A stretch of 64,000 nt of DNA from Strigamia acuminata (lineage: Eukaryota; Arthropoda; Chilopoda; Geophilomorpha; Linotaeniidae), in contig CASHSZ010000070.1 in assembly GCA_949358305.1 (NCBI GenBank), forward strand, positions 62,001-126,000, in the 5' to 3' direction. The notes under the pieces are model-generated. The model worked only from the letters and a program-made list of their open reading frames with translations. It did not search any database and had not been told where the DNA came from. Shown here in pieces: positions 34,490 to 64,000 of this stretch (positions are counted from its first letter, which is position 1; every line of letters starts with the position of its first letter). The translations under genes were made by a program, and so were the position numbers.

Positions 34490-36576
34490 GTGCGCGCGCA
34501 AGTTAAATGTGTACAGGACTGTGAGAAAATAAAACGTGTGTGGAAGAGTAAATGTTCTTTGGTGATCGCCATGAGTTCGTACTTTGTCGTGGGCGCGAAA
34601 TGTGTGTGATATATATGCTACTATGCGTGATGTAGCGCCGTCAGCGCGTTTCAGCACGCGATGTAGCGCCCTGAGCGCGTCCAAATGCGTACAGGTGTTC
34701 GACAGATGTGCCAGGGCTTCACGTGCATACGCGAAACATAAACATGAAGAAAACAGAAAAAACCGTTGTGTGTGATGTTTATAAAGACACATTACACAAA
34801 GAATACTACTCTTCATACAAAAAGCAATAAACTTTATACATATTGCAATAAACTTACAAAATGGTAAAAATAAAATACTGGAAAACATGGCCTTGAATAA
34901 TAGTGGAAAACATGGCGTACTGCCTTGAATACCCCCTTGAATACGTCGCACCGCATCATCTCGCCTCACTTCTCGTCTTGGAAATAAATAAACGCCCCGG
35001 CGTTTATTCGAGGCAATGTCCAACTTGGGCTTTCATTCGCGCCTCACATCCCGCCTTGGTAATAAATAAACGCCCCGGCGTTTATTCGAGGCACATCACC
35101 CACACCTCCCCGGCGTTCAAACGAGTAGCTGCGCGTATTTGACCCCGGTTTTTATTCTTTCAAATTGTCGTGTGTTTTCAAAGTTCTTAATTTGTTCAAA
35201 AACAAACAAAATGGCTATTTGTTGATTTTTAATTGATTTTATCGATTTCTGTTCGTTTTTTGCTGGTTTTTAATCGATTTTTCTGTATTTTTGATCAATT
35301 TTTGCCAATTGTAATCGTTATTTGTCATTCTGAATTGATTATTGTCAGGTTTCAGTCGATTTTTGTCGATTTCTGATCAATGTTTATACATTTCTTATCA
35401 TTTTGTGTAGATTTCTGTTGAATTTTAATCATATTTCTTCGTTTTTATTCAATTTTTGTCCCATGCTCCGCGATCAGTTCGAATAATTGACACCATACTG
35501 TGCTTTTACTCATATTCAAGATGGCGTCGCAAACTCAAGGTCGAATTCCGCTGAATTCATTTATTGCGACTGTTTGCGCTCCATACATGCGAAAAGGATT
35601 ATGGGAAAAATCCTCAATGCAGGTCATTTTGGTGTCAAATGAGCGAGGAAGGCTGGAGATAAGGAAAATTGGTGAAATTTCAAAAAAAAGCTAAACAATC
35701 AAAATTTACATGAAGCTCAATTTTTCTAACTGGAAATGCATGTATCGTCAATTTCGGGATATTTTAGGGGTGAAATTGACTGGGAAGGGACCCCCACATT
35801 CCCCATGCGTCAACGCGCGCGTTGACGAAATTCAAATCCAGGTTTTCACACAGCCCCACGTTATTTTCGGGTTCCAATTGCCGTATTGCCGTATTGCCTC
35901 AAATAAACGCCGGGGCGTTTATTAATTTTCATTAATTTTCCAGACCGGAAATGAGGCGAGGTGATGCGGTACGATGCAAAATTGCGAGATGTAGTTTGCT
36001 TTATTTGTTAAAACAAATTAGGCGTCACTAATTCACCTGTATTAGGGTTTCAATGTGTGAAATTTCAAAATTTATCGGTTCCGTCAAAACGCCATTGAAA
36101 AGTTACATTTTTATAACGTTTCAATGATGAAAACGGCCATTTTTGATGAAAAACAGCCATTTTTTATAGAAAAAACGACGAAGAAAGCCATTTTCACTAT
36201 GAAAAATGGCTGAAAATGACCATTTTGACGAAAAACGGCCATTTTTACTACGAAAAATGGCTAAAAATGCCACTTGAGTGAGTGCAAGTACATTTGGTGA
36301 TGTACTATCGCGAGCGCGCGCGTTTTTGTGCAGTACAATGTGCTGATTAAACCAACAGCATTATAGAGTGATTACATTGTTCATTTGTGTTTTTAAGTTA
36401 CAAAATGGTACAAAATCATAAAATAAACTTGTAAAGTGCAATTTCTGCGGATTGATCAAAATCCGCAAAATCCGCCGCAAAATTGCGAACAGGGGATCAG
36501 CATATAGGCAGCCGTAATGTTAAAAATGGGGTCCCTTTCGCACTCCGCAAAATCCGCATGCGCGCCATAAGGTTAA
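34490..36576. repeat. F block, copy 2, left flank of retroelement island
   Basis: This is a near-identical copy of 15505-17591 at an offset of 18,985 bp. It ends CCATAAGG-TTAA (36573-36576), immediately followed by copia-1 sequence. With the adjacent A units it forms the left arm of the inverted repeat 32948-36576 / 60372-64000. The internal MITE-like element lies at 34936-35986. No gene is supported. Confidence 0.85.
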
Positions 36577-36713: not shown

Positions 36714-39491
36714 TTACAATCGGAAAATTCGAGAAATCAACGATTGTAAACGTTCCGATCCGAGCCACTTCGTGAAGATGTCGGCGACGTTAAGATCGCC
36801 GGGCACTTTGCGGAGTTCGAAACGTCCCGCCGTATACCACTCCCTGAGCCAGTGATATCGTACACGAATATGTCGAGTTTTCGAAGTTTCGACATCAGTG
36901 GAAGTAAACTGTATGGCAGAGAGAGCGTCGGAATAGATGACGAGTCGCGATAATCGGTTGAGGACCGGAAACTGAAGATAAACGTGGTCCAACCAGTAAA
37001 GTTCCTTGACACACTCAACAAGGGCGATAAATTCTGCTTCCATTGTTGAGCATGCCACGGTCGACTGTTTACGACAGGACCAGCCGATTGGAATGTTGCC
37101 GATGAAAGTGATATAGCCGCCGAAACTCAATGATGTCTCCGGATCGCATGCCCACGAAGCGTCGGTGTAAGCCCACAATTGCGAAGACGTACAGCCGGAT
37201 AATTCGATGCAAAAGTGCGCGGTGTTAGCGACGTACTGTAGAACTTGAAGTAATGCTCGGATGTGGGTCTTATTATAGCAGGTGTTGTATTGCGATAAAT
37301 GGATAACTGAGTAAAGTATATCGGGGCGTGTCCTCGAAGCCAAGAATAACAGTGATCCTATCAGCGAGCGGTATGGGAAATCTTCCAAATTCTCGGTCGA
37401 TCCTCTGACGAGTGTCGTCCCGGGTGTCACGGGAACTTTCACGAGCTTGTTGGTCGAGGTACCAAACTTTTTGATGATCTTCGCAATATAAGCACGTTGG
37501 GAAATGAATGTGCGTCCCATATCGCGGATGAACTCGACGCCTAACAATTTCGTAATCGGACCGAGGTTAACGATTTGGAATTTCGAACTGATAAGTTGGA
37601 TCAATTGGTCGAAAACACTGTCGGACGCGTAGAATAAAATAATATCGTCCACGTAGACTAACATGATGGCGGAATTTCCGAAGACGTAGACACAATTGCA
37701 CGCGGGCATTCTTCGGAATCCGAGGTCTCGAAGCGTTTCGTCCAATTTTTCGAACCACTGTCTTCCAGACTGGTGAAGTCCGTAAAGTGACTTAATGAGA
37801 AGCCACACATTGTTGGGGTTGGAACATGTGGCACCTGCAGGGATCCGCATATAGACCTTGTGTTTAAGTTCGCCATACAGGTACGCACATTTCACATCTA
37901 AGTGTGCATCCTTCCAACCACGCAACACGACGAGAAGACAGAAGAATAAACGGATTAAGACAAAATTCACCACCGGACTAAAAACTTCATCGTAGTCGAC
38001 TCCGAGAGTTTGACGAAAACCCTGGGCGACTAAACGAGCTCGATATCTGGTGATCGTCCCTGCTGCATCGGTCTTCAGCTTAAAAAGCCATTTGCAGCCA
38101 AGAATCGTAGTATCCGGTGGTCTTGGAACTTCGAGATAAACTTCTCTTTCGGTAAACGTGTCGAGCTCTTCCTTAATGGCTTCGCGCCATTTCGGAGCGT
38201 CGGAAAATTTCGAGATTTCAGCGTAGGAAGCTGGTTCCGTTCTGCAGAGATGAGCCGCATGGCGAGCACCCGGAATAGTCGGCAATGTGTACTCGATGTT
38301 GCTCCAAATAAACAAACTGGGGTCATAATCGATGTTGTTGAGCATACAGTATTCATCAACATCTCTCTGAGATCTAAGTCGAATGCCGGGCATCGGAAAG
38401 TAGTAAACGTCCGTTTTAATCGATCCCGGAACTTGATCCTTCCGAAGGTGTTCCTCGCGTCTCCAATCACTGCACTCGGAATCTCCCCCAATGGGTCGCC
38501 AAATATATGCAGTATGGCGATCCGTAGCAGGCAAGACTTCTGTCCCGACTATGTGCTGAATTGGAGCAGGAGACATTGGAGTATCGTCAAATACCGACAC
38601 TGTATGAGAAAGATCTGCTCCACGGGTTTTCCGGCGATACGTGATGTATCTGGCTGGGGAACCTAGCGGTGATTGGCGAGGAGACTGCTCTGCGGATGTC
38701 CCTGTGAAATCAGACGTCCTTGGAAGGATAGATAGGTCATCAAAGTTAGCAATATCGTCATCTGTGTCTCCTTCCTGATAGAGGATGGGATACGATTGGG
38801 AATGTCCTAGGCTTGCCGAACTTGGTAATTGCAGTGCACATGCATCCAACAATAACTGCTCTGGCGTTGTCGGAGGCGGCAATTGCATGACCGGTGTATG
38901 AACAGAGTGAGATGTCGATACGCCGCTGGCATGGCTAGCTCCACCATTATCGGAATCGTCGTCGGAATGATCAGAATGTTCGGAATCGGATCCTCTTGGC
39001 CAGTCATGGAACTGTACGTTGTCGTTAAACGAAACCGATTGCTGTCCGACATCAGAAAAAGTTTCTTCGGGCCGTTGAGATGCGCCACGAAGAGATTTCC
39101 GATATGATTGGCGTTCATCGATCTTGACGTAAACCGTTTCGTAAACTCGATCTTCTACCGGATTCCAAACTCTATATCCGCGGGTACCAGTCGCGTAACC
39201 AACGAGATATCCCTCCCATGCACGCAGATCTAGTTTCTTGCGGCCTGGCGCGGTGTAATGCACCCAGCATTTGGACCCCATTTTGGGTAGGTGTCGTAAA
39301 GACAATGCTCGTTGTCGCCATAGAATATAGGGAATCTGATTATTTAATCTCGAATGCGGGCTTCGGTTCTTCACATATGCAAAAGTAACTGCGACTTCCG
39401 CCCAAAGGTCGTCCGGGAGTTGAGTTTCAAAGATAAGAGATCGAACACTGTCGGCCATTGTTCGATTTATGCGTTCTGCAGTCCCGTTCAT
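36714..39491 (-). pseudogene. pol: Copia-1 pol, C-terminal part: integrase end, MBD-like, RT, RNase H
   Basis: A 925-codon frame begins just after the ochre codon that splits integrase and is in frame with the part at 39522-41198. Residues 1-30 carry the integrase catalytic Glu region (GTAERINRT). Residues 80-130 resemble the GKGxxxx-type integrase tail with a YLVGYATGTRGYRVW motif. Residues 130-335 are a Ser/Asp-rich linker. Residues 343-382 resemble a methyl-CpG-binding domain (W343, DVYY 361-364, RLRS 371-374). Reverse transcriptase runs from about 430 to 690 with YVDD at 613-616. RNase H is in the last 160 residues (YTDASW 775-780, STMEAE 815-820, SDALSAI, KTRHI). The frame is otherwise intact, so inactivation looks recent. 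Confidence 0.93.
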
Positions 39492-39521
39492 TTGAGGTGA
39501 CGTAGGATTGGTCCGCTGTCC

Positions 39522-41198
39522 TTAGATGCCCTTTTCTTTGAGGTAGTTCAGAAATTCATTTGACATGAATTCGCCGCCGCGGTCGGATCTAATCGCTTTC
39601 ACACGCGTATTCTGAATTCGTTCAACGCGGGCGACAAAGTCTTTGAATGCCCCAAAGGTTTGCGACTTCTGGGCCAACGGGATAATCCACGTATAACGTG
39701 TGGCATCGTCGATAATGGTGAAAACATAATCCGAACCGCCCAGTGATGTGAGCGGGGCTGGCCCCCACAAATCCATGTGTAGAAGATCCAAAGGTTTCGA
39801 TGTACAGGGATTCGGGTCCGGTTTATGTGAAGCTCTGGTCGATTTAGCAATTCTGCAGTCGTTACACGACAATTCTTGTTGGACTTCAGCTGGTTGCAGA
39901 CCATAAACTTGGTCGTTGGCTGCCAGAAGCTTCATTGCATTAGTATGCAGGTGACCGAGACGACTGTGCCATAGACCGGTGGCGTCTTTAACCGAAGCAG
40001 GATTAGCAATTACCTTCTTCTGTAACGGAGGTGAATTGCCGGGAGGAGGGGAAGTCGGTATTAACTGCAGAACATTGGAATAGGACTGTGTGGTCGGATT
40101 GACAATGACCGGTGGAGGAATAGGAGTAAGGACGGGAAAAAGTGTAGGATCGGTCAGGTTTGGAATTGGTTGGGTGGGAATTGCCTTCACACTCTCAACC
40201 GCTGGCGGATCAAAACGATAGTCTGTAATTTCCCGTTGCTTTTGTTTTCCTTTAACCGGTTTCGGAACATTGTCGAAATCCACTTCTGTCGTGATCATTG
40301 TTTTGACAGGTTGAATTGTCGGCTGAGCAGTTGTCGATACCGTCGTCGAACTGATGGGAACCGAGCACAAACCGTCCAAATAATAAAGTCCACCACGTTC
40401 TCGAGCACGAATAATCGGTGTGCGAATATCTGTCTGATAAGCATTGAACTCGCCATTGAAGATATGGATGTGATGGCGCGTTTTATCGATTTTCGACACT
40501 GAAATCAAATTGGCTTCAAAATTCGGTGCATATAAGACGTTTGTTAAATCGAGCACGCAATCAGCATCGTCGATCGACGTAAGAAGCTGAACTGTTCCTC
40601 GCCCAGTGACTTGGGATTTGCCTTGGCCTAATTCAATATCGAAAGGCGGAATGTTTGTAAAAGCGGTGAATAAAGCTCGTACATGGGTCACGTGGTCGGT
40701 AGCGCCGCAGTCAACAATCCACTCATTGGATTGCATAAGGTGGGCAACTGGGCGCTCAACGACTTGCGGTGCACTGCAGAAAAATGTCCCTTTCCGAACT
40801 GGATGTGAACTCCCTCGAGGACGAGTATCTTCGACCTTGGCGACGGCGTTCTTGTTCCGTCTTCGACTCTTGCTTCTCGAGGAGCGTTGCACGGAAGCCG
40901 TCGACTGATTCGGGTTCGGATTCTCACGTCGAGGGTGGGGGCACTTATTTGCGTAGTGGCCCATCTGGTCGCAATTGAAACACCGAATAGTTGACAAATC
41001 ACGAGCACCGGATTTATTGCGTTGGCGAAACTGTCCTTTCGCAGAAGCATGAGCCGTCGGAGGAGTTGTTCGAAGCAGACCCGCCGATCTTAAACGAGAT
41101 TGTTCGGATATCAACTGTTCGGCAACCAAAGTCGGTGTAAATTTGTCATCCGGCCAATGGTAAATTGCGAATGTTGCCTGGGCATACTCAGGTGGCAA
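39522..41198 (-). pseudogene. pol: Copia-1 gag (C-terminal), protease and integrase core
   Basis: A 558-codon frame closes at an ochre codon (39522-39524) where the reading otherwise continues in frame into the next part. It holds the CCHC zinc knuckle CFNCDQMGHYANKC (residues 73-86). The aspartic protease has an active-site motif of WIVDCGATDH, so Cys replaces the usual Ser or Thr after the Asp. The integrase zinc-binding HHCC region is LWHSRLGH ... CNDCRIAKS. The first two catalytic acids are in HMDLWGP and RSDRGGEF. The apparent start is not the true start: coding enters from the gag frame at 41111-41752 through a one-base frameshift near 41230. Confidence 0.92.
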
Positions 41199-45601: not shown

Positions 45602-46421
45602 TGTGGTGACCCAGTTGGATAAGTGTCCCCCCAGGGTGGATACTTGTCCTCTGAGTCACTATGATTGAAGAGTCGTTCCCCCCCGAGTTGGCTCCACCTC
45701 CCCATGGCAGGTGTGCGCCCCGAGGGGGAGGAAGCGGCTGGTGGTCAGCCCCCATTGGTTGATCGCCGGCCCTTCACCCCACTGCATAAAAGGCTGTGTT
45801 TCCCGCCTAAAGTCAGAACTTACACAAACGACACCAAGAACACAGCAACTACCTCACCGTCAGGCCAACTTCAACTACAAGTTAGGATTGATCGAGGATC
45901 GCTGAGTAAAGTGCAAACTGTAACTCTCACGAAGTCACTTGCGAGCTATTCCTGCGAAAGCACGAGAATAGCCCTTGTGAAATCATCCAGAATAATCGCC
46001 CAGTCGATTATTCGCCGAAGTAAGTGTCCGAGTGCTTTGTAGGGAACCCCAAAGTTCCTAGACGAGGCCTCTGCGACGCTAAACCAAACCCTAGACAACA
46101 GGCACGGATAGAAGACTCGAAAGAGCATTCCACCGCGTCCGTGAAGACGAATCCGTGACGAATTAACGACAACTCGAGACGCCGCCTTTGTTCCGCCGAC
46201 CACGCGGAACCGACGACGCCATCTTGAGAAATCCTTTGTTCGACTCTGACCAAGTCGACTTTAGTTGTATACTGAGTGTATTTTAAAGGCATAAAGCCTG
46301 GTGAATAAATTACCTGTTTATTTACATACATTTGGTATTCATTTGGGTATTTGCATAATTGATCACAGGTAAAGTATTACACGTTAGCGCTATTTAAACC
46401 TATACAAAGTAGGACGCGACA
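45602..46421 (+). repeat. Gypsy 5' LTR (820 bp)
   Basis: This starts TGTGGTGACC and ends GGACGCGACA. A TATA-like CATAAAAGG (about 45785) marks the U3/R side and AATAAA (46304-46309) the polyadenylation signal. It abuts the copia-3 fragment on the left and a primer site two bases to the right. I found no second copy after pol (59635-60371), so the 3' LTR is absent or replaced. Confidence 0.72.
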
Positions 46422-46423
46422 CG

Positions 46424-46439
46424 TGGGGGTCTGTCCGAG
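46424..46439 (+). other. Gypsy primer-binding site
   Basis: TGGGGGTCTGTCCGAG lies two bases after the LTR end, the standard position and TGG start for a tRNA 3' end. The priming tRNA was not identified. Confidence 0.6.
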
Positions 46440-46515: not shown

Positions 46516-46602
46516 ATGTCAGACAAAGATGAACAATCCGCGTCTGAAACCGAGCAGAGAATGCCCGAGAAGGGAAAAAGGACCTCCGACTACCACCTAA
46601 GG
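46516..46602 (+). pseudogene. gag: Gypsy gag, first 29 codons, upstream of copia-2
   Basis: An ATG 76 bp after the primer site opens a short acidic and basic N-terminus (MSDKDEQSASETEQ...). The frame reaches the target duplication TAAGG (46598-46602) as codons CTA-AGG. After removing copia-2 and one TAAGG copy, reading continues without a shift into TCG-GAT-GGT at 52466. This shows that the ATG at 52487 is internal and the true gag start is here. Confidence 0.85.
46598..46602. other. Target site duplication of copia-2 (left)
   Basis: TAAGG borders the LTR remnant and is repeated at 52461-52465 beyond the 5' LTR. Five bases is the usual copia integration footprint. Confidence 0.92.
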
Positions 46603-46660
46603 TGTTGAAAGTATGGATTGATGAACAAATTCCAGGCCAAAAGTGAGTAAAAGAACAAGA
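46603..46660 (-). repeat. Copia-2 3' LTR remnant (58 bp)
   Basis: This is identical to the first 58 plus-strand bases of the 280-bp 5' LTR (52181-52238). The other 222 bp and the end of RNase H are deleted, so the LTR pair can no longer support replication. Confidence 0.95.
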
Positions 46661-47768
46661 CAATTTCCTTTGCACCGTCCAAAAGCGCTAGGAATTCCGC
46701 TTCCATAATGGACAAGGCGCAATAGCGTTGCTTACAGCAACCCCAGGAAATGGGAACCCCGAACACCGAAATTGTATAACCTCCGAAGCTCTTTCTTGTA
46801 TCTCGATCTGAGATCCAAGAAGCATCGGAGTGCCCTGATAGAATATCTCCAGTGACCGCGGAAAGCTGAATTGAATATTCCCGCGTATTCTTCACATACT
46901 GGAGGATCTGTAGCAAAAGGGCCACGTGCCTTCCAGTGAAACACGTGTTATATTGCGACATAAGAATAACTGGAAAGAGGATATCGGGACGCGTTCGAGA
47001 AGCTAGAAAGAGCAGAGACCCAATAAGAGACCGATATGGGAATTCATCATCCCTCAAAACACGTTCACCATCTCTAGCACAATTGACCATCGTGCCTACG
47101 GCAATCGGGACTTTGCACAAATGCTCGGAGGAAATTCCGTAGTCCTCAGCAATTCTATCAATGTAATCTCGCTGATGGATGCAGATTTTACCACCATCGC
47201 GATCAAATTGAACGCCCAACAACTTTGATACCGGACCTAAATCTGTTATTGTGAAAATTGCACGAAGGGCCTTAACAGTTCGATCACGCGGATCTTGTCC
47301 TTTGGTGAAAAGTACCATATCATCAACATAAACAAGGATGACGGCATCGTAAGTGTTGGAAATAAACACGCCATTGATCCCAAGAAGCTTGTGGAAATTA
47401 ATCCCTAGCAAAGCCTCAACTAGACGGAAATTCCATTGCCGTCCGCTCTGATGAAGGCCGTAAAGGGCCTTATGAAGCCTCCATACCTTACCGGCATTCT
47501 GAGGAGTTTCCCAGCCCTTAGGAATTCTCATGAAGATAGCTTCATCTAAGCTGCCATATAAATAAGCACCCTTGACATCGAGATGTGCATCTAGCCAGCC
47601 TAAAACGACTACTAGAAGCACGAAAAACAGGCGTATAAGCACATAGTTAACCACGGGACTGAAAACCTCGGAATAGTCGACTCCGAACTTTTGGCTAAAG
47701 CCCTGGGCAACCAACATCGCTCTAAAACGGCGCACGACGCCTTCTGCATCGGGCTTGATGTAGTAAAC
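46661..47768 (-). pseudogene. pol: Copia-2 pol, RT and truncated RNase H
   Basis: This continues in frame from the amber codon at 47769. The reading after the stop is VYYIKPDAEGVV, and the stop takes the place of the conserved Trp of the copia KW-(F/Y)-x-K motif (TGG to TAG). Reverse transcriptase includes GFSQKFGVDYSEVFSPVVN, KALYGLHQSGRQW and the catalytic LVYVDDM (47319-47330). RNase H begins SDASWISDRDTRKSFGGY and SIMEAEFLALLDGAKE, then breaks at 46660 into LTR sequence before its last catalytic residue. Confidence 0.93.
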
Positions 47769-50700
47769 CTATTTATTCCCCACAATGTTCACATTAGAAG
47801 GAGGTTTCTCAACCTCTTCGTAAACACCTCGCTCACGGAAGAGTGAAAGCTCTTCCTCCATGGCTTTCTGCCAATGGACACAGTCGGGACTTGCCATAGC
47901 TTCCTTATAGGTGCGAGGAACCTGGGCAAATAAGGAGTGCGCGTACCGTGGTGTAGCAGAATAGCAATCCCCTAATGCTTCATCTTCTGAAGCCGTAGGA
48001 CTAGGAAGAGGAAAAGCAGTTGGATCTGCCGGAAGGGGATCAACCGTGCAAACAGGCACGTTCCGGGTGCAAAAGTCAAAATTATCACGGTCATATGTCA
48101 ATCGATGATCTGCGCAATATTGCGCAACGTCAACATGACTCCGTAATCTGGTATGATCCGGGGGATAAAAATACACATCAGTGTTTCCCATAGTCGCACC
48201 AGACTGCCGAATCACCTCGGAGCGAGTCCACTTGCCCCCCACAGCCGAAGTAGAAGGCTGAGGCTGATTTAGTGGCGAGGCAATAGTAGGAGGTGTAGGC
48301 AACGGATGCGCTTGCGCTGAAGGTCGAGTAACCACAGGCGGTGGAGGAGGAGGATAAGAAGGTGGAGGAGGATAAGAAGGCGGAGGAAGATTGGGGGGAC
48401 GTTGAGGAGGAGGTGGAGGAAGAGGTGGATCGGAATCGAAATCCGAATCTAATGTCACCGATATAGCTCCCTCATCAGTTACCTCAGTACCCTCATAAAA
48501 ACGAGGATGTCCCCACATGCAGTTTTCATCAAAACGAACATGCTTTGATTCAAACACCGCACGGCGCTTAGGGCACCACACGCGATAACCTCGCGTGCGC
48601 AAAGCATAGCCAACAACTACACCCGTCCAGGCTCGAGACTCGAATTTTGAACCACGGACCTGTTGTGGTATGTGCACGAAACACCTTGACCCAATCACTT
48701 TTAAGTGCTTGAGTGGAACAGCCTTGTTGTACCACAGACAATAGGGGACAAGGTTATTCAGAGATTTATGTGGAAAGCGATTTTTGAGATAAATCATTGA
48801 AACCGCGAGCTCAGCCCACAACTCTCGAGGCAAAGATGACATCAAAAACAAGGAACGCACGCCCTCAAATAAGGTGCGGTTAAGGCGTTCCGCGACGCCA
48901 TTCTGCTCAGGTGTATAAACATTCGTGCGCTGTGCCTTGATGCCACGCTGGAGCAAGAAATTTTCGAAATTTTTAGAGCAAAATTCCATCCCGTTATCGG
49001 TTCTGACTGCTTTAATGCAGCCAGCCCCCCATAATGTTTCCATCCGAGCATGGAAAAGTTTAAAAACTTCAAAAACTTCCCCCTTCGTTTTCATAGGGAC
49101 AACAAAGGAATAGCGAGAAAAGTCATCCACGATCGTTAATAAATAACGAGCGCCACCCACGGAAGTAGTTGGGGAATTTCCCCAAACGTCCATATGGATT
49201 AAATCCAAAGGCTTCTTACTGGAAATTCTATTCTTTGCACTCGGAAACGAGGCTCGGGTGGATTTAGAACGAGCACACACGGCACATGCCGGAAATGCGG
49301 AAGTCGAAATATCGATTCCGGAAGCATTCGGAGATTTCGCTAAAAAGTGTAAACCTTCGGTATTAAAATGCCCAAATCTCCGGTGCCAAAGCTCTAAATC
49401 GGATAACTTCCCCTTCGGGGGTTTACAAGGAGGGGATAAAGCAGGTCCCTCGGCAAAAGTGACATGCCGAGCAGGCTTTATAGTCTGCGCAGAGAGGACC
49501 GGCTTGACCACTGAGGTGGCCGTAAGCGCAGGAAGCGGCGCAGATGTAGAATCTGCGGGCAAGACATGCTGAAGGGAATATAAATCATCCTTCAGTTTGG
49601 CATGCAAAAGAAATTGTTTGGCTTTGTCGGACGGATCAAAAATGGTCATTAAACCATTTGAAGCCACAAAATGTAGTCCGGCGCGATCAATTTTTGACAA
49701 ACTGACTAAATTACGCGAAAAAGCGGGGGCATGAAGAACATTATGCATTGTGACGGGAAATTCTCCTTTCGCGCCACCACGACCAATCCGCAAAACCACG
49801 TCACCTATACCATCAACTCGTGAACGGCCTTCACCCAAAATGATGAAATAATTCGAAACGGGCTTGTACGTCGAAAAAGAATCACGACGGCAACACACGT
49901 GGTCAGATGAACCCGAATCAATTAGCCATTCCAAAGACGAAGTCGATGCGACGTTGGATTCTGACCGTGCAAAGAAACCTAAACCGGACCTTGCACTTGA
50001 AACACTTTGAGCACTCGGGGCAGGTGGTGTTGCATTACCGCGTCCACTTTTGCGGTTCCGAGACGAAGATCGGCGACCACGATTGGTAGACGAGTTGGAA
50101 GAGGCAACGCCCTGGACTCGAGGTTTGAGGCACTTGTTCGCATAGTGTCCCATTTCCTTGCAATTAAAGCACTGAATTTGTGACAAGGGCTTGAAAACTC
50201 TCGTCGGTGCACTCGAAGACGAACTCGCTGACTGTAAACTAGTCGATGACCCCGAATCTGCATTCTTCATCTTCAAACGATTAAATTCGGAGAGAAGATG
50301 GTCGGAGACTCCCTTTAATGTGAAATCCGCTTTAGACCAATGATAAATTGTTTGTACGGTCGCCTCGTACGAATCTGGTAACAAATCCAAAAGTTGATAA
50401 GCGACATCCGAATCCGAAAATGTGACTTCCAAGTCCTTCAAAACGGCACGGGCTTTGGTGACACGGCTAATGAAAACTGACATGTCTTCATTCGGAAGTA
50501 AACGCATCATCAGGAAATCTCGGCGGAGTTTAGCAATTCGGGCAAGAGAAGTCGGCTGAAATGTCGCTTTCAAGGCTACCCAGGCGTCATGTGCGGAGTC
50601 CGCAGCAAGAACAATGTCCTGATATTGGGACTCGACAAACAAGCCAAGCAAGGCTTTTGCACGCTTTGAACGGTCGTCGTGAAGCTGTTTTCGAGGCTGA

Positions 50701-50855
50701 TCCCAGGCTTCGTCTTTGACCGGAGGATTCTCGGAGATGAAGTCATCTACTCCTTTTTCCAAGAGCAAAAATTGGATATTTCGGGACCAAGATTCGTAGT
50801 TATCGGAGTTCAGTCGTGGAATTGAAAATTGGTGAGATTTGCCGGTATCCGCCAT
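47769..50855 (-). pseudogene. pol: Copia-2 gag-protease-integrase-MBD-like polyprotein
   Basis: A 1,028-codon frame from ATG (50855) runs to an amber codon. Residues 1-200 are copia gag. Residues 229-242 form the zinc knuckle CFNCKEMGHYANKC. The protease active site is LIDSGSSDHV (Asp313). The integrase HHCC residues are H491, H496, C524 and C527, and its catalytic acids are D556, D620 and E656. A Pro-rich linker spans 810-840. Residues 873-915 resemble a methyl-CpG-binding domain: W876, R883, D893-V894-Y895, R905-S906. The last 60 residues enter the RT domain. The start is supported by a typical copia gag beginning (FSIPRLNSDNYESW). Only the final stop prevents a continuous gag-pol frame. 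Confidence 0.95.
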
Positions 50856-52180: not shown

Positions 52181-52460
52181 TGTTGAAAGTATGGATTGAT
52201 GAACAAATTCCAGGCCAAAAGTGAGTAAAAGAACAAGATTTAATCATCTCATGCAAGCATGGAGAAAAATCAACAACAAGAGAACAAGTAATAACAACAG
52301 TTGCTAAGCAGTTAAAAAACAACCCCAACTACGGTAACCCAATTGATACATCAATGTTTACATGATAATAAACTATAAAATCATAAATAATTACAAATCA
52401 AACATGTGTAACATCAATAATCAATTGCATATCACAAATCTCGGAGAACAAAAGCCAACA
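52181..52460 (-). repeat. Copia-2 5' LTR (280 bp)
   Basis: The ends are the perfect inverted pair TGTTG / CAACA. It is flanked outside by TAAGG (52461-52465) and inside by the primer site. AT-rich, with several AATAAA-like and TATA-like words; no single functional signal is assigned. Confidence 0.93.
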
Positions 52461-52465
52461 TAAGG
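52461..52465. other. Target site duplication of copia-2 (right)
   Basis: TAAGG matches 46598-46602 and is followed by the in-frame continuation of gypsy gag. Confidence 0.92.
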
Positions 52466-55400
52466 TCGGATGGTCCCGTCCCTGAAATGTCCGCAAAGGC
52501 GAAAGCCCGAGCGAACAAAAGGAGAGCGAAGGCGCAGAAAGAGGAGCAAGCTGCATCGCTCGCGGCCCTAGACGGGCCAGAGCGAGAGCGGGTTCCCTTG
52601 AATATGCCAACCTTCGAAGATACCGATACGGAAGCCCCAGAAAATCGAGAAGAAATTCACGACGTATCACCGGGACGAGTATCGATATTAATGGCCGAGG
52701 AGACGAATGAAACTCCAAAGAAAACGGCCACGGTCGGCACGAACCCATCGCCACCAACGGCTCAGACGTCCGTAAAGCAAACCCCACGGAAAAACGACGG
52801 CGGGACCCCGATAACCCCCCGAGTTACGGCGAGTCCTGCAGTTGTTTCCTTCGAAGTATCTCACCTAATTCGGTTGACGCAACAAGCTGCCCAACTGAAA
52901 GCGATGATAGACATTCCAGTAGGGACGTCAGTCTGGGAATCGATTACTCTACTCACTGACGCTATCTGTGCGGCACAAGCCCCGACGCCGGTCGCAAGAC
53001 CAGCAGCGGAGACGCCCATGCCCCAGGTAACGCCCAGTGACACCGGAGGTTTCGTACCAGACCCCAACAAAGCCCTTCGCGAATCCAGAGAGAAAGCCCG
53101 CGAAGAAGCCAGACAAGAGGCAATTAATCGCCAACAAAGGCTGAGCGCGGAAAGACGAGAACTCTGGAAAGAAGAGGAAGAAAGGGAACAGCGTGAAGGA
53201 AGGACCACCGAGAGAACAGAGAAACTGGTCCAAAAAATGAGGGAAGAACGAGAAGCTAAAATTCGAAAAGAATGGAACGCCACAGTAGAAGGGCGACATC
53301 GAGAAGCTCAAGAATACGAGGACCAATTTCAAGCCCTCATAGCTCAAAGAAAAGCAGAAAAGCTACAAATGTTGCGAAAAGAAGCCATTCTACAACACCA
53401 GAAATGGGAAGAACAACATCGCGAGAGGCTGAGAGAAGAGGAAGCCCGAAAAGAAAAAGAACAGTTTCTGAAAGAGAAAGAAGAGTGGGAACGAGACAGA
53501 TGGACCGAAGAGTACAAAGCGAAGAAGCAAGCCATAATAGATGGGCAAAAAAGATGGGAAGCCGAAAACTGGGAAAAAGAAACAGAAAAGTTCCAAAAAG
53601 AGTATGAGCAAGACGTTTCGGATAGAAAGAAAAAGGAAGAAAACCTGAAAAGGAAACCAGAACCCCCCAGCGGCTCTGACACCGACACAGGAGAAGATAA
53701 AACAAAGTCGGCGAAAGCAGCGAAAAAAGGGAAATCTGAAAAGAAAGACGGGCCGGTCCCAAAAACAAAGGACCGTCACCCCTCAAAAAGATCCGAGACG
53801 GGAGCAGCCATCGACGCGCTACTCGAAAAGAAAAACGCGAATAAAAACCGGGAACATCCCGAAAGCGAGGAGAACAGATGGCATTCTTTTTACGAGAACA
53901 ACGACGGAGAGGAGCCGCCGCCATCCGGAGGCTCGAAACAGAAGAAGGCTGGCGGAGAGACCCCACCGAGAGGGCCGAGGTTTCACCCCCAAGGAGATCC
54001 CTCCGAGCCCTCCGATTCGTCAGACGACGACAACCCGAGTCGACCATCTACAGGGAGGAGTCGAGAGGGCAGCGATGGGCACCGGTCGAACCGACCGAAT
54101 GCTTCAAACCGCTCTTCCCGAAGCTCCAACCCTCGCTCAGAAGAAGGGAACTTTCAGGACTCATCTGGCCGCCATTACACGATGGCTGAGCTAGGCCGAG
54201 CCCTGCTGAACTCTTTCAGAAGAGAAGGAATTGATCTAGGCCATCCAGGCGACGAGCATAACCGCGCAGGAGAAAGGGTTAAGCGCAAATATGGCGTACG
54301 CAACAAACCAAGCGGTGAGGCCACGGGTAACATCCGTTGGCAACACTATATTCAAACGCGGTTTGACGGTTCGTGGAAGGCCGGAGACCGCTTCCTGGAC
54401 GAAGTAATGCGTATCAAGAAAGCGACAAAGGCCACCGTCGCCGACATGCTAACCCACGGTCTAGTGGAGCTAACCACGGGGGCAGCTCGAGAATGGTATC
54501 AGGGACTGAAAAACCCAACCTGGGACGATTTTCTCGTCCGTTTCGATCTCCGATACGGCGAGACTCCAGACGAGATCAGTAACAAATTACGTGGTCTACG
54601 ACAAGCCCCAGGAGAAACATTAGCCGACTACGACGCCCGAGCGAAACTACTGTTTGCAAGAGCGCCGTATGAAATAAACCCCGCTGGTTTTACGATGATC
54701 TTTTACGGAGGATTATCGGCCCACTCGCAAAGAATTCTGCTGGACATGCGTGCACCCCGCACTGGCAATTACCAAGATGTCAGTAACTATCTTCTAACAA
54801 ACACGTTAGAAATAGAACAGCGGTATTACGCCACTCTGCCCCCGGAAGAAGCTGACGCACACGAGAAACGGTTGCAGACGAGCGCCGAACGTCACAAGAC
54901 CTCAGAGAAATTAATGAGGCCAAGTGAATATTTGAGCGGCATAATGAGTCTCACCGAAGCATCCTTCGGACGAATGCTGACGCCTAAAGCAGGCAGTACT
55001 CTTCCAGCCAACCCGATAGCTGCCCCAAAGAAAGCACCGGCAGCGACAGCGATGCAGGTGACCTCGACGGACTCCACCCAGATGGAGAAAGTCGAAGAGA
55101 CAACACCTCTCGCCACGACTAAAGAAGAGGAGCCAGCGTCAAGCGACGAGGAAGCCCTAAATGAACACCTCGAAAACTTATCAACGGGATGCGACGATCA
55201 AGGTCCCTATTTGCACCACGCGCACCGGGCCTTAGCAATCGCACAATTCAGAGCACACGTGCAGGCAACAAAAGCGAGAGGGGCATTGGGAGGAAAAAGA
55301 CGATTCCCGACGCCCTTCGTCCCCAAAAAACCGGGATTCACTCCCACAGGGGATAAAAGTAACATCAAATGTTACAGCTGCGGAGAATACGGTCACTATT

Positions 55401-55510
55401 CAGACAAATGCGAAAAAACCGTCAAAGAAAAGGACATCATGCAAACCCTGATGAAAATGATGATGGAGTTAAATACTAATCTGGCAAAAAACTCCCAAGC
55501 GCAGGCGTAG
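52466..55510 (+). pseudogene. gag: Gypsy gag, main part, large coiled-coil type
   Basis: About 1,014 codons continue from the 29 codons at 46516. An early Ala/Lys/Arg stretch precedes a long Glu/Lys/Arg-rich predicted coiled coil (about 53080-53690). A Ser/Pro/Asp-rich disordered region follows (53700-54180). Next is a Retrotrans_gag-type capsid region (about 54330-54800: WKAGDRFLDEV, AAREWYQGL, WDDFLVRF, ETLADYDARAK). Last comes the zinc knuckle CYSCGEYGHYSDKC (55370-55411). It ends at TAG (55508-55510), and the -1 frameshift signal lies just before the stop. At about 1,040 residues it is much longer than most gypsy gag proteins because of the N-terminal coiled coil. The only damage seen is the copia-2 insertion. 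Confidence 0.92.
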
Positions 55511-55537
55511 CCGAAATAAATTCAGCTTCGTCTGCGC
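55486..55537 (+). promoter_or_regulatory. Programmed -1 ribosomal frameshift signal, gag to pol
   Basis: The heptamer A-AAA-AAC (55486-55492) sits in the gag frame as gcA-AAA-AAC. A 6-nt spacer follows. A 9-bp stem comes next: GCGCAGGCG (55499-55507) with CGTCTGCGC (55529-55537), one G-U pair, loop 21 nt. The gag stop is inside the loop start (55508). Slipping back one base enters the pol frame exactly (AAA-AAA-CTC-CCA-AGC-GCA). This matches the known retroviral and retroelement rule for -1 frameshifting. Confidence 0.88.
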
Positions 55538-57180
55538 CAGCCGCGGAAATTAAAAAGAAGAAATATCACACTGGACCCGCAGGTCATGCCTTGGCAGAGG
55601 CACAGATCAAAGACCGCATACAGACCATTCCGAAGAAGGAGGAAAAAGTGACGTTAACGAGTATGCAAGTGAGAACGAAACCGGACGTCGACATGGATTG
55701 GACGGACCTTCCGTTCAATCTGGAGGTTGAGCCCCAGACATTACGCGTATTTCACTGCAATGTCACGAAAGCACATTGCGAAACTCTGTGTATGCTACCA
55801 GTGGAGATAGAGAATCAGAAAATGTTCGGTCTGCTGGACTCGGGAGCGGACCGCTCATTCATATCCGAAGATATAGTAAAGGACTTGGATATTGAAAAAA
55901 AAGTGGCACAAGTGAACGCGAACGTAGAATTACTCACCGCCAACGGCTACGTCAAGCCAAAGGGCGTAGTTCGCATCATGATCGACTGGAAAGGGGGGAA
56001 CCTGTCCCATCCCTTCATAGTCTTGCCATCCCACGACAAAGTATTCCTCCTAGGGATGGATATCATGGCAAAACTGAAAATTCAGCCAAACCCGATAACC
56101 CGTTCATGGAACTGGATAAGTCCCGAGGGAGAACGGCTAGTCCCCGTAGTTCCCCAAAAATTACTGGACGAAGCCAAGGACAAAGAGGAATACGGAAGAG
56201 GATTGCGAAAATTCGTCCAAGATTACGATTTCGCAGCCTTCACTCTGGAATTACAGAGGAGTAACGTCGTGGACACACTGGTCGAGGAGGCAGCACTGCG
56301 TGTTAACGAGGCATCGCTACTAAGGCGAGTGCTTCGGAAACATGAAAGAATTCTGACCAAGACACCCGGTCGAACAACGGAAGCAGTCCACGAGATAGTC
56401 TTGACCACGGACAAGCCGATTCGAGTGCCTTACAAGGGGATGAACCCCCAGAAAAGAGACATTGTGACGCAAATGTGCCAAGACATGCTCGACAAGGGCA
56501 TAGTAACGCAAGCCCTGGGCGAATACGCCATGCGGATCGTCCTAGTAATGCGTCCAGGCTCGGAACCTCGACTATGCATTGATTATCGCCCCCTGAACGC
56601 GATAACAATTATAGACCCGATTCAGATGCCGTCTATAGACTCGATTCTCCGGGAGCTGAGCCCATTCAAGTGGGTAACCACCATGGACCTGTCAAAAGGG
56701 TATTGGCAAGTGGAGCTAAAACCCGAAGACAAACTAAAAACGGCTTTCTACTCCCCGATAGAAAGATTAATGTTCAACGTGATGCCGTTCGGGCTTGTAA
56801 ACGCCCCGAGCACGTTCCAAAAACTGATCGAAAGCGTGTTGGAAGATATGCTTCACGACTTCGTGTGGGCGTATCTCGACGACATCATAATAACGTCGGA
56901 CACATTCGAAGAGCATATAGACCACATCGATAGAGTGGTCTCTCGCCTAGCCAAGGCGGGACTCCACATCCATCCAGGGAAGAGCAAGTTTTGCAGAAAA
57001 GAGCTTGCCTTCCTAGGATATCGAATAGGAGTCGAGGGAATCGCGATTGACCCCGAAAAGGTCAAAGCAATAAACGGATTCCCCGCCCCCGAAGATATAA
57101 AAGGTGTCCAGAGATTCATGGGCATGGTCAATTTCTTCGGCCGACTACTCTCTGGTCTGGCTGAGGTGGCCGCGCCTATA
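55493..57180 (+). pseudogene. pol: Gypsy pol, protease and reverse transcriptase
   Basis: Entered by -1 frameshift, with no ATG needed; a TTG near 55591 is not the start. The retropepsin motif is GLLDSGADRSFI (about 55827-55862). The reverse transcriptase has RLCIDYRPLN, TTMDLSKGYWQ, MPFGLVNAPSTFQ and YLDDIII (YLDD at 56871-56882), followed by FLGYRIG and the connection region FMGMVNFFGR. The frame then runs out of register near 57180, right after AEVAAPIT, and ends at 57294. The correct continuation (LLRTDKEFEWTVQCEAAF) is one frame over. A single one-base deletion or a sequencing error would explain this. Confidence 0.93.
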
Positions 57181-59621
57181 ACGATCTCTTACGAACGGAT
57201 AAAGAGTTTGAGTGGACGGTCCAGTGCGAGGCCGCATTTAGCACTATCAAGCAAATGCTGGCTGACGTCGAAAAGATGCCATTGCCGGACCTAAACCGAC
57301 CGTTCGTGTTGCACACCGACGCGAGTAAAATCGGACTGGGTGCAGCCCTTCTGCAGACCCACGTGTACAACGGAACCTCGCAGGAAGTACCCTGTATGTT
57401 TATAAGCAGAAAAATACAGGGCGCGGAGAAAAATTACACGGCAACGGAACTAGAATGCCTAGCCGTAATTTGGGCAGTTCGGAAATTTCGCGACTATCTG
57501 GAGTACACGAACTTCGAGGTTCAGACAGATCACCAGGCACTAAGCTGGTTGATGAAGCTCAAAGAACCCTTAGGCCGGCTCGCGCGATGGCAACTGGAGT
57601 TAATGGCGTGCGACATAACCATTACGTACCGCCCCGGGAAGTACAATCATGTGGCCGACGCCCTCTCAAGAGCCCCAGCATCTGACCCCCAGGGTCCAGA
57701 CGACGACGGCGAGGACGACACCCATCTCTTGTACTGCCCAACTCCACGGAGAATATGGCGCTTGCGGAAGGCGAACGAGCTACCAGTGATGGAGCCCGAA
57801 GATAGAACGTTTTGTGGTTTTTGGACCCGAACGTACCAGCCAGCTGGGACGAGCGATTCAACATCCGAAATTCAATCTCCGCCCCCCGGAGAAACCCACA
57901 AAACACTACTACGCGCCTTCACAGCAAAAATTGAAGAAAAAACGCAATATGCTCCACCCACGAGACGTGAGTTCGTCGAACACCAGGCAGCAGACACAAA
58001 ATGTCAAATTATAACGCAATATTTGCTAAACGGCGAATTTCCGGAAGGGAAGACAAACCCACACCGCCGAAAACAGTTCGTCAAAGAAGCAACAAGCTAC
58101 CTCATAGATGATGAACTCCTGGTAAAATACCACCCGACGTTTCAAGACGACCTCAGCGGAGCGGGAAACTCGGTTAAGGTGGTCGTACCGGCATCGCTGC
58201 ACACCCGACTGTTGTGGCTGATGCACGGACACCCGCTCGCCAGCCATTCCGGCATAGCGAGAACCCTTTATCGAGTAAAACAACTTTTCTTCTGGCCGGG
58301 CGCGCGGCAAAAGATAACGAAATTTATCCGACACTGCCCCCGGTGCCAAGCGTGCAGACCGCGAGATAAAGTGGCCAGAAACGCCATGTCACTCGGACCC
58401 TACGCACCGTTTGACTGCTTAAGCATTGACTTGATGGGCCCCAAGCCCGCAACTGGAAACAAGAACATGTATATTCTCGTAATTATGGATGTGGCCACCC
58501 GATGGCCGGAGCTGTACGCCCTCGTGAAGCCCTCGGCTGAAAATATAGTCGAGTGCCTTTACGACGTGGCAATGCGATTTGGGTTTCCCAGAAAACTCAT
58601 TTCGGATAACGGCCCCCAATTCCGAGCAAAAATATACAAAGACTTCTGTAGAAAATTTAAAATGGATGCATCGAACACCTCCACGTATAATCCTCAGACA
58701 AATCCAGTCGAGAGATTAAATAAAGACATAAAATATGCGCTGACAGTATTCACTGATATTCACAATCGATGGGACGAATACCTGCGAGAAATCGCTTTCA
58801 GCATTCGCTCAACCGTGTCAAGAACACGCGAATTCTCACCGGCGTACCTCAACTTCGCCCGCGAATTAAGGATGCCATGGGACCCACGCGTTGCCGAAGC
58901 TGTTAACGTATTAGACCCATCGAGCCCACATGAGTACGTGTGCCGGTTGGAACAGACTATATCCGACACATACCAGCATATGATGGCGCATATTTTCAAC
59001 ATGAGAGAGCGAATCGCAGATAAGGAAGGCGATCTCGCTTTCGCGAACTTTAAAGTGAACGATCTAGTGTGGAAGGAGGCACACACGTTGTCCAATGCAG
59101 CGAGGGGCATCGCCGCGGGTTTAGCCGACAAGAGGGACGGTCCCTATGTAATTGTGGCCGAACACGGCGGCAACGCATACCAACTGCGTCGTTTAGAGGA
59201 CAACAAAAATTTTCAGTCGATACATGGCCGAGATTTAAGGCCATATCTGCCAGAATTTCCACAGGAAATTTGGCTGGAAGGTCAGACACACAGCGGCCAA
59301 GGGGGCACCGTGGTCGACACGTTCCAAAAAACAAATGAAGCTGAAAATATAGCGGAGAGCGAGGATGAATTCTTCGACGCCGAATCCCCAGCCGACGAGG
59401 CTCCAGCTCAGCCGGAGCAAGCAATTTCGGAGAGGGAGGAAGCAGAACAATGTACTTCTGAAATGGAAAATAAAAAAATTAATAATGAGAAAAATGCCAA
59501 CACATCGGAGATGAACGAGCAAGTAGAGTCACGATCTACGAGCACGTCGAAAATCAACCTTCGACCACGACGAAGCAATAATCCGTTCATTCGGGACGGC
59601 AAAGTCGTGGGGAAGAACTAA
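57181..59621 (+). pseudogene. pol: Gypsy pol, RNase H and integrase
   Basis: This continues pol after the frameshift near 57180. RNase H has FVLHTDASKIGLGAALLQ, the ELECLAVIWAVRKFRDYL helix and TDHQAL. The integrase zinc finger is HPLASHSG ... CPRCQAC (HHCC, about 58227-58360). The DDE core is SIDLMGP, SDNGPQF and PVERLNK (about 58425, 58605 and 58707). A GPY-like tail (KRDGPYVIVAEHGGNAYQLRRL) follows near 59130. The last 130 residues are acidic and Glu/Ser-rich, ending in a basic SKINLRPRRS motif. No chromodomain or envelope was seen. Confidence 0.93.
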
Positions 59622-60371: not shown

Positions 60372-62458
60372 TTAACCTTATGGCGCGCATGCGGATTTTG
60401 CGGAGTGCGAAAGGGACCCCATTTTTAACATTACGGCTGCCTATATGCTGATCCCCTGTTCGCAATTTTGCGGCGGATTTTGCGGATTTTGATCAATCCG
60501 CAGAAATTGCACTTTACAAGTTTATTTTATGATTTTGTACCATTTTGTAACTTAAAAACACAAATGAACAATGTAATCACTCTATAATGCTGTTGGTTTA
60601 ATCAGCACATTGTACTGCACAAAAACGCGCGCGCTCGCGATAGTACATCACCAAATGTACTTGCACTCACTCAAGTGGCATTTTTAGCCATTTTTCGTAG
60701 TAAAAATGGCCGTTTTTCGTCAAAATGGTCATTTTCAGCCATTTTTCATAGTGAAAATGGCTTTCTTCGTCGTTTTTTCTATAAAAAATGGCTGTTTTTC
60801 ATCAAAAATGGCCGTTTTCATCATTGAAACGTTATAAAAATGTAACTTTTCAATGGCGTTTTGACGGAACCGATAAATTTTGAAATTTCACACATTGAAA
60901 CCCTAATACAGGTGAATTAGTGACGCCTAATTTGTTTTAACAAATAAAGCAAACTACATCTCGCAATTTTGCATCGTACCGCATCACCTCGCCTCATTTC
61001 CGGTCTGGAAAATTAATGAAAATTAATAAACGCCCCGGCGTTTATTTGAGGCAATACGGCAATACGGCAATTGGAACCCGAAAATAACGTGGGGCTGTGT
61101 GAAAACCTGGATTTGAATTTCGTCAACGCGCGCGTTGACGCATGGGGAATGTGGGGGTCCCTTCCCAGTCAATTTCACCCCTAAAATATCCCGAAATTGA
61201 CGATACATGCATTTCCAGTTAGAAAAATTGAGCTTCATGTAAATTTTGATTGTTTAGCTTTTTTTTGAAATTTCACCAATTTTCCTTATCTCCAGCCTTC
61301 CTCGCTCATTTGACACCAAAATGACCTGCATTGAGGATTTTTCCCATAATCCTTTTCGCATGTATGGAGCGCAAACAGTCGCAATAAATGAATTCAGCGG
61401 AATTCGACCTTGAGTTTGCGACGCCATCTTGAATATGAGTAAAAGCACAGTATGGTGTCAATTATTCGAACTGATCGCGGAGCATGGGACAAAAATTGAA
61501 TAAAAACGAAGAAATATGATTAAAATTCAACAGAAATCTACACAAAATGATAAGAAATGTATAAACATTGATCAGAAATCGACAAAAATCGACTGAAACC
61601 TGACAATAATCAATTCAGAATGACAAATAACGATTACAATTGGCAAAAATTGATCAAAAATACAGAAAAATCGATTAAAAACCAGCAAAAAACGAACAGA
61701 AATCGATAAAATCAATTAAAAATCAACAAATAGCCATTTTGTTTGTTTTTGAACAAATTAAGAACTTTGAAAACACACGACAATTTGAAAGAATAAAAAC
61801 CGGGGTCAAATACGCGCAGCTACTCGTTTGAACGCCGGGGAGGTGTGGGTGATGTGCCTCGAATAAACGCCGGGGCGTTTATTTATTACCAAGGCGGGAT
61901 GTGAGGCGCGAATGAAAGCCCAAGTTGGACATTGCCTCGAATAAACGCCGGGGCGTTTATTTATTTCCAAGACGAGAAGTGAGGCGAGATGATGCGGTGC
62001 GACGTATTCAAGGGGGTATTCAAGGCAGTACGCCATGTTTTCCACTATTATTCAAGGCCATGTTTTCCAGTATTTTATTTTTACCATTTTGTAAGTTTAT
62101 TGCAATATGTATAAAGTTTATTGCTTTTTGTATGAAGAGTAGTATTCTTTGTGTAATGTGTCTTTATAAACATCACACACAACGGTTTTTTCTGTTTTCT
62201 TCATGTTTATGTTTCGCGTATGCACGTGAAGCCCTGGCACATCTGTCGAACACCTGTACGCATTTGGACGCGCTCAGGGCGCTACATCGCGTGCTGAAAC
62301 GCGCTGACGGCGCTACATCACGCATAGTAGCATATATATCACACACATTTCGCGCCCACGACAAAGTACGAACTCATGGCGATCACCAAAGAACATTTAC
62401 TCTTCCACACACGTTTTATTTTCTCACAGTCCTGTACACATTTAACTTGCGCGCGCAC
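60372..62458. repeat. F block, copy 3, right flank of retroelement island
   Basis: This is the reverse complement of 34490-36576 (positions sum to 96948). It starts TTAA-CCTTATGGCGCGC at 60372. The internal MITE-like element is at 60962-62012. It points away from the island, so the two F copies face outward. No gene is supported; the 284-codon frame 61925-62779 is the same A/F-spanning artefact as in copy 1. Confidence 0.85.
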
Positions 62459-64000
62459 TTGCTAATGCTACGGTCGACGGCGATTCGCATGCGCTATCCG
62501 CTGCATCAAACCCCAAATACCGATAAAAAATCGCAGAAAACACTAATCCCGACCCAAAAACCGCCAAAATTACCCTCAACACACGCCAACAACCTTCCAC
62601 CACTTAAATTACACCGGAAAAAAACAATTTCAAACCGAAAAATCAACAAAAAAGGCCAAAAAAATATTGCAAACAAAGAGAAAAGATCAATTATCGAGGC
62701 AAATCCCCACCACAAAACAACGCATCGCCGGTATACACTTAAGCGTACAGTGCACAACACTACTGTTTATTTTCAATGATCCAATAAATAAAATTTGAAA
62801 CAAAGTTGAGTGGAATTGTACGTTTCTTGTATATTAAAGTTTTTATTTTGTTTGTTTACACTTAATTTTTTTTTTCCATCATAGAATGGCGACTCGATAC
62901 TTTTGTAGCTCGAATTCACTTCGTAAACGTGGTCGGTGTTCATCACGCGTCAATGCGCTCGTGCAATAGTATAGGCGCGCATACGATTTGATGCGCGCAA
63001 AACTTGCAAAACTTGCACGGAATTTGGGCAATTTTTGACAAATTTCAGCAGATTTTTGCCTGTATTTGACAAATTTCAGAAGATTTTTGCCTATATTTGA
63101 CAAATTTCAGAAGATTTCCTCAATCCTCAAACATTTGCTGAAATTTCTCATAAAATTTCTAAAATTAATTGAAATTTGTCTGAAATTTGTCTGGAATTTG
63201 TCAAATATTGTCAAAAATCCGTGGAAATTTGTCAAATACTGGCAAAAATCCATGTAAATTTGTCAAAAATTGCCATAATTCGGTGCAAATTGTGTTAGAT
63301 ATTGGAAAAATTTATTTTAACGCTTCCAACGCGCCAGTAAATCGCGCGTGCACACGCATGGATTTTTCGTCATAGTTGGATGCGCGCAAACCTCACGTAA
63401 CTTGCGCCAAAATTTGGCAATTTTGGACAAATTTCAGCAGATTTTTGCCAGTATTTGACAAATTTCCACTGATTTTTGACAATATTTGACCCAACAACTG
63501 CGCCACGTTCCAGGCGCCGGTTTAGGCATTTTAGACCCGTTTTAGACCGTTTTAGATGGCGAAAACGTTCTCTCCATCATTTTCTACCCCTGGGTGAGGT
63601 TTTCAGCGTTCATGATTGATGAAAAAGCTGTTTTCTAACTAGCTGTCCCATTGCTAGTTTTGGCGTCAGGTTTTAGCAACCTTCCGATCCGTTCTCTGTC
63701 GTCTGCACGACCTCCAAGACCGTTTTAGGGTTAATTTGAGTCAAATAATTCATTCTGGGGGTTGTTTTGGGTTTTTTACAAGTGTGTTTTTGTAGTTTTT
63801 ATTGGTTTCAAACATTGTCAATTCTTTATACAAGTGTAACTTTCATTTCTCTGTATTTTGAGAACTTTGCATTGCAGCAAAGTTCATTTCTTGCCCCTTA
63901 ATTATTGTGTAATTGTTGGTTTTCAAGCCCGTTTTTTAACAATAACTTTATTTGAAGTGCCTATTGTTTCAGGCACGTGCTTCCACGTGCCTTTTATTGT
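62459..64000 (+). repeat. A array, fourth block, running off the window
   Basis: This is almost one A unit in plus orientation, with the 28-bp segment next to F (about 62517-62544). It mirrors 32948-34489 as far as the window edge, so the inverted repeat probably extends further. Confidence 0.9.

Follow-up and report, generated by a model that had tools for sequence, protein, structure and literature searches.

The window, by which we mean the whole 64,000-nucleotide stretch of Strigamia acuminata DNA that was analysed, contains a damaged retrotransposon of the Ty1/copia type on its minus strand. Its gag-pol open reading frame (ORF) of 1028 amino acids (47769-50855) was taken from the ORF list, and its domains were assigned by Pfam; they comprise, in this order, gag, a zinc knuckle that scores slightly below the Pfam cut-off, Pol_BBD, GAG-pre-integrase, the integrase (IN) core, an SH3-like domain, a Pro-rich linker and a methyl-CpG-binding domain (MBD). 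A stop codon ends the ORF where the reverse transcriptase (RT) region begins. A separate ORF on the same strand encodes the RT/RNase H piece (46590-47735; RVT_2, E = 2.4e-48) and runs into a remnant of the 3′ long terminal repeat (LTR) after a deletion in which 3′ sequence beside the LTR was lost. The 5′ LTR of 280 bp lies at 52181-52460 (minus strand), with an LTR-edge motif found in 17 of the 20 sister copies fetched, and of the 3′ LTR the final 58 nt remain at 46603-46660 (minus strand) as a direct repeat of 52181-52238. Beside the 5′ LTR lies a primer-binding site, presumably matching initiator tRNA-Met at its 3′ end. The element is flanked by the two copies of a 5-bp target-site duplication (TAAGG) at 46598-46602 and 52461-52465 (plus strand). 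The element thus shows the hallmarks of Ty1/copia, namely LTRs, a 5-bp duplication and the order gag, integrase, RT, the last being read from the two window ORFs and from six long relatives. A sister element, at locus L033, has two identical 307-bp LTRs and the duplication CAGTG.

The copia element is itself inserted into a Ty3/gypsy element on the plus strand. An LTR of the latter (~824 bp; 45602-46425) matches locus L038 at 98%, and the start of this LTR is common to all 18 gypsy copies fetched. The gypsy coding part (52487-59621) comprises a gag-like ORF without a Pfam match, a protease-RT ORF and an RNase H-integrase ORF, and none of the three had a Pfam MBD match at E 0.001. At locus L036 a gypsy copy is contiguous across the site of the window insertion and differs by one base in the 5 bp that were duplicated; it carries an MBD-bearing copia element (CopiaMBD) of its own ~340 bp further along. 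Other parts of the window are repeated as well. ORFs at 15184-16038, 34169-35023 and 61925-62779 have an identical 284-residue translation and mark a repeated part of the window; one of the three was given to Pfam and had no match. Long ORFs at 4017-4994, 6789-7577, 20297-21217 and 26920-27741 are built from repeats of a short Arg-, Phe- and Ser-rich peptide and are probably satellite-like DNA rather than genes.

The MBD lies between the SH3-like domain of the integrase and the reverse transcriptase of this S. acuminata element. Residues 875-932 of the pol ORF (48060-48233, minus strand) matched the Pfam family PF01429 with 35.1 bits against a curated cut-off of 21 (E = 1e-8, with the whole pol ORF as query). 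An earlier note on this DNA, written from the sequence without database searches, had proposed an MBD-like module in the copia pol at 48111-48239 and had named PF01429 as the profile against which to check it. The coordinates, the minus strand and the letters of the feature were as described there, the 43 residues in question matched PF01429 on their own (E = 1.1e-7), and the Pfam match extends beyond that span. When the single sequence was compared with the PDB by phmmer, MBD1 ranked first (E = 1.8e-7) and MBD2 next, both aligned without a gap; 29 of the 33 PDB sequences listed were MBD proteins, the remaining 4 being weak and unrelated. A profile of 11 MBDs from separate elements (alignment A2) ranked MBD2 first in the PDB (E = 2.1e-15), followed by MBD1, MBD4, MBD3, MeCP2 and others. 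The Pfam and PDB profile searches therefore bear out the proposed module.

The residues characteristic of the family are also in place. W876, R883, D893, R905 and S906 occupy the canonical MBD positions; the first four had been placed correctly in the earlier note, and the spacings given there of 7 (W876 to R883), 10 (R883 to D893) and 22 (R883 to R905) hold. R883, D893 and R905 are the counterparts of the known DNA-contacting residues of MBDs. The pattern W-x6-R-x9-D-x11-R-S occurred once in the 425 ORF segments of the window, and 500 residue shuffles gave a mean of 0.008. The AlphaFold prediction of the domain, for which the input consisted of two window sequences only, was of low confidence (pLDDT 51). 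A protein database search with pol residues 840-1028 had 339 candidates, none of which reached E 1e-3, and a phage search gave no match. On these sequence grounds, we conclude that 48060-48233 encodes a real methyl-CpG-binding domain.

A second copia element of the window (36714-41198, minus strand) carries a divergent MBD-like domain at 38271-38495 (minus strand; ORF 36714-39491; alignments A1 and A2). It keeps the W, R, D, R and S residues, has a first loop that is one residue longer, and gave no Pfam MBD match at E 0.001; as it was part of our custom profile, its own score with that profile is circular. The copia ORF L031:7217-9706 looks by Pfam like one without an MBD, a reading overturned by a match of 24.5 bits to the custom profile. 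Its domain is degenerate, with a shortened first loop, and retains W, R, D, R and S. With its shortened loop, this ORF could serve as a natural experiment on the role of the loop in recognition. The survey of related copia elements that the earlier note had recommended did not refute its reading: the two relatives met without MBD-based choice both carry the domain at the same place.

MBD-bearing copia elements are widespread in the assembly (237,517,015 bases). We searched it with the Pfam MBD, with the 43 residues of the window domain and with the second copia domain; the three lists may overlap, so that counts refer to the matches listed. All of the best 150 of 1092 first-look candidates scored with the Pfam MBD passed the cut-off, and 20 of these places were examined closely. 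Among the best 150 of 1292 candidates scored with the window's 43 residues, 28 were identical and 9 matched at 98%, and 22 of these 37 places (98-100% identity) lay in frames of 1525 codons. The second copia domain (best 150 of 1272 candidates) found many frames of 1647-1701 codons. Many of the listed places thus lie in open frames of 1,500-1,700 codons. The domain was located between SH3 and RVT_2 in all six long pol ORFs given to Pfam, and was found in six of seven candidate ORFs of damaged elements; in the seventh, from L026, it lay in a separate ORF. All 13 of these ORFs had been picked by their MBD match. Half of the 20 loci have a direct-repeat pair of the LTR kind, nine pairs being 99.4-100% identical and one 98.1%, and the near-identity of these pairs indicates that several elements moved recently. 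One fetched MBD match, L022, contains a stop. A stretch beside a CopiaMBD place on scaffold C8, L046, matches the window at 99.4%. Another locus, L039 (G000:C3:20309085-20309201), gave a 35-bit match to the MBD family outside any long copia ORF; it does not have several residues common to the copia MBDs and is probably an exon of a host gene.

Across 11 aligned MBDs chosen from the window and the fetched loci, seven residues of the domain do not vary (W, R, R, D, R, S and F). Between the window copy and L033, the dN/dS of the MBD was 0.14, and that of RT, IN and SH3 in the same pair was 0.05-0.07. Across the 12 pairs compared, the MBD gave 0.00-0.09 in six others and 0.19 and 0.39 in two distant ones, and was undefined in three. 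Judged by these codon comparisons, the MBD is under purifying selection. Distances between MBDs closely follow those between RTs of the same 15 elements (Mantel r = 0.94, reached in 0 of 10,000 permutations) and those between INs (r = 0.96, 12 elements); most of the relatives in this comparison were chosen by their MBD match, so that it cannot test for absence of the motif. These correlations fit a single old capture followed by joint inheritance with pol, and do not imply a date for the capture.

As to where the domain came from, the A2 profile, with MBD2 at the head of its ranking, may point to an origin of the MBD2/3 type. The host MBD2/3 gene (L042), located via its MBDa region, appears from the DNA alone to have an intron midway through its MBD, and the copia MBDs have no intron. 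This difference suggests that the domain may have been captured from a spliced host transcript.

We then turn to the sites at which these elements have inserted. One flank each was taken from 20 copies of the window's family, out of 23 with 98-100% identity in the 43 residues and frames of 1522-1525 codons. Seventeen flanks were used, L046, L048 and L050 being dropped as their LTR edge fell outside the fetched stretch, and all were read on one side only. In these 17 near-identical copies, the first 100 bp outside the LTR contained 12.0 CpG per 100 bp and the region 600-940 bp outside it 7.1. The near value was the higher in all but one of the 17 (Wilcoxon p = 1e-4), and with three alternative definitions of near and far p was 7e-4, 0.027 and 0.002. 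One pair (L045 and L053) among 15 flanks has repeats in common. Besides this distance control within each flank, the edges of gypsy copies, which differ in the whole integrase and not in the MBD alone, served as a comparison: in 18 of the 150 gypsy copies listed, the 100 bp just beyond the LTR had 3.9 CpG per 100 bp and a GC content of 0.37. The window-family copia copies differed from them in CpG (p = 2e-5), GC (p = 1e-5) and observed/expected CpG (p = 0.002). The GC content of 15 copia flanks was 47.6%, and the chromosome mean for S. acuminata is 38.9% in the genome report (PMC10556566).

Seven elements of other MBD clades, some of them close kin, had a mean of 6.4 CpG per 100 bp (p = 0.04 versus gypsy); they come from ten elements with repeat pairs, of which L026, L029 and L033 were left out. 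Since this mean compares with 12.0 in the window's own family, the CpG preference is strongest in that family. The insertion of this family beside unusually CpG-dense DNA, unlike gypsy, provides indirect support for the idea that the MBD may guide integration to methylated CpG chromatin, which the earlier note had put forward. CpG near the insertion sites was present at 1.64 of the expected frequency, which does not look like the result of long-standing germline methylation; two host loci also lacked CpG depletion (observed/expected 1.20 and 1.35).

The listed places are unevenly distributed over the scaffolds. Among the matches listed, 58 of the 229 CopiaMBD places used lie on X and Y, versus 6 of 150 gypsy places. 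The 229 consist of all 150 places found with the second copia domain and the best 79 found with the window's 43 residues, the remaining ones from the latter search and those from the Pfam MBD search being left out; scaffolds C12 and C13 were assigned as X and Y by length. On the autosomes, both the CopiaMBD and the gypsy sets of listed places are clustered, with 0 of 1000 random sets as tight. Six of the listed CopiaMBD places lie within 10 kb of a listed gypsy copy, which does not clearly exceed what random placement gave (mean 2.3, maximum 9). The window copy and the L036 copy both lie in gypsy DNA. The data do not bear out the idea that the family lands mostly in other transposons: for 13 of the 20 flanks, a small library of loci gave no match.

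DNMT1-RFD matches were found at four sites (G000:C3:35916032, C1:11843310, C3:32740723 and C3:35876619), suggesting that S. acuminata may have two or more genes of the DNMT1 type; DNA_methylase was matched at five sites. From these matches, DNA methylation is likely to be present in the host. The S. acuminata genome is given as 237.5 Mb with a longest scaffold of 66,985,994 bp (PMC10556566), the methylation level of S. maritima as 33.18% (PMC8857917), and the fraction of 719 S. maritima transposons that are highly methylated as 0.758 (PMC7343188).

Taken together, we consider it likely that a domain of the MBD2/3 type entered the integrase tail of an ancestral copia element, probably by capture from a spliced host transcript, and that it would since have been passed on together with pol while purifying selection maintained it. 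In the present elements, the MBD most likely binds methylated CpG and would tether the integration complex to CpG-dense methylated DNA. The sequences themselves show what the domain is, where it sits, that it is conserved and co-inherited with pol, and that insertions of this family are biased toward CpG-dense DNA. We infer that the S. acuminata copies would bind methyl-CpG, that their target sites would be methylated, and that the MBD would be the cause of the insertion bias. One could object that the domain lacks a DNA-binding function, being either a passenger in decay or a piece of the Pro-rich linker that resembles an MBD by chance. The window copy is indeed damaged, with a stop at the start of RT and a 3′ deletion, the first loop is altered in the second copia element and in L031:7217-9706, and a stop interrupts the L022 match. 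Yet chance resemblance is ruled out by the significant Pfam match, by the PDB matches of both the single sequence and the profile, and by the shuffles of the motif spacing, while decay is at odds with contact residues that are invariant in 11 aligned domains, with dN/dS values well below 1 in the informative pairs, and with the 98-100% identity of the 43 residues at 37 of the best 150 places, 22 of them in 1525-codon frames. This objection is hardly credible and, as far as sequence allows, already refuted. It is also quite improbable, if less so, that the domain has diverged from MBD2/3 to read something other than methylated CpG, such as unmethylated CpG-rich DNA or RNA. There is a precedent in members of the MBD family that do not recognise methyl-CpG, TAM domains among them, and the high observed/expected CpG at the targets would agree with such a reading; both arginines and the Asp are nevertheless kept in the 11 aligned domains, and the 2019 paper on such elements (de Mendoza et al., Genome Res 29:1277), to judge by its title, terms the captured domain functionally active.

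A more serious competitor, though still rather unlikely in our estimate, accepts a functional MBD and attributes the CpG-dense targeting to a preference of the integrase or of nucleosomes, or to the loss of insertions elsewhere; the MBD would then serve another step, for example holding the element on its own methylated copies or competing with host silencers. The contrast with gypsy does not isolate the effect of the MBD, since that control has another integrase; the CpG excess is smaller in the other MBD-bearing clades, and the excess of listed CopiaMBD places on X and Y would arise likewise if recombination were low or selection weak. The enrichment in CpG is a local one, however, being strongest within 100 bp and falling outward in 16 of 17 flanks, a pattern that large-scale retention fits poorly, and the MBD sits at the integrase tail, where gypsy chromodomains steer integration. 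We therefore keep to tethering by a captured MBD as the preferred reading. A stronger form of it, which we offer tentatively and regard as possible but doubtful, holds that the MBD is a short-range targeting device, directing integration to within ~100 bp of dense methylated CpG, that specificity has come to differ between the MBD clades (the CpG preference is strong in the family of the window and weaker elsewhere, and the lineages of the second copia element and of L031 have a changed first loop), and that X and Y are a major sink. If this were true, a single host genome would hold a set of natural epigenome-reading integrases.

The earlier note knew of no MBD as a standard part of Ty1/copia pol. 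Such an arrangement has been reported for arthropod Copia elements. In 2019, de Mendoza, Pflueger and Lister reportedly described CopiaMBD elements from S. maritima and from a spider; the captured MBD is said to bind methylated CpG-dense DNA, and young copies in the centipede are said to accumulate in CpG-dense regions. The element described here shares with them the Ty1/copia type, a Strigamia host, an MBD captured into pol between integrase and RT, and an insertion bias towards CpG-dense DNA, seen here against the gypsy control and reported for S. maritima; it differs in its species, S. acuminata. Given that description, we conclude that the S. acuminata element belongs to the published CopiaMBD kind, in a new species. 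The distance profile of insertion, the comparison with gypsy edges, the X and Y excess and the loop variants were obtained in the present analysis and may have counterparts in the 2019 paper. A second, chromosome-scale Strigamia genome supports the notion that a methyl-CpG reader is conserved in Copia elements, and its many near-identical insertions, together with existing HiFi reads such as ERR10906091, make the targeting hypothesis directly testable in S. acuminata.

The chromodomain at the integrase tail of chromoviruses probably steers integration, and chromoviruses resemble CopiaMBD in having a host-type chromatin reader at the C-terminus of the integrase. Chromoviruses are, however, Ty3/gypsy elements that read histone methylation, whereas the element described here is Ty1/copia, has its reader between IN and RT, and would read DNA methylation. 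The host MBD2/3 gene (L042) has the domain type closest to that of the copia elements by the PDB profile, which ranks MBD2 first, and differs from them in the apparent intron within its MBD and in its MBDa region. Retrotransposons with captured DNMTs, as presented by de Mendoza et al. 2018 (PMC5890265), likewise have taken over a host methylation gene, but theirs encodes a writer enzyme rather than a reader, and their hosts are dinoflagellates and charophytes.
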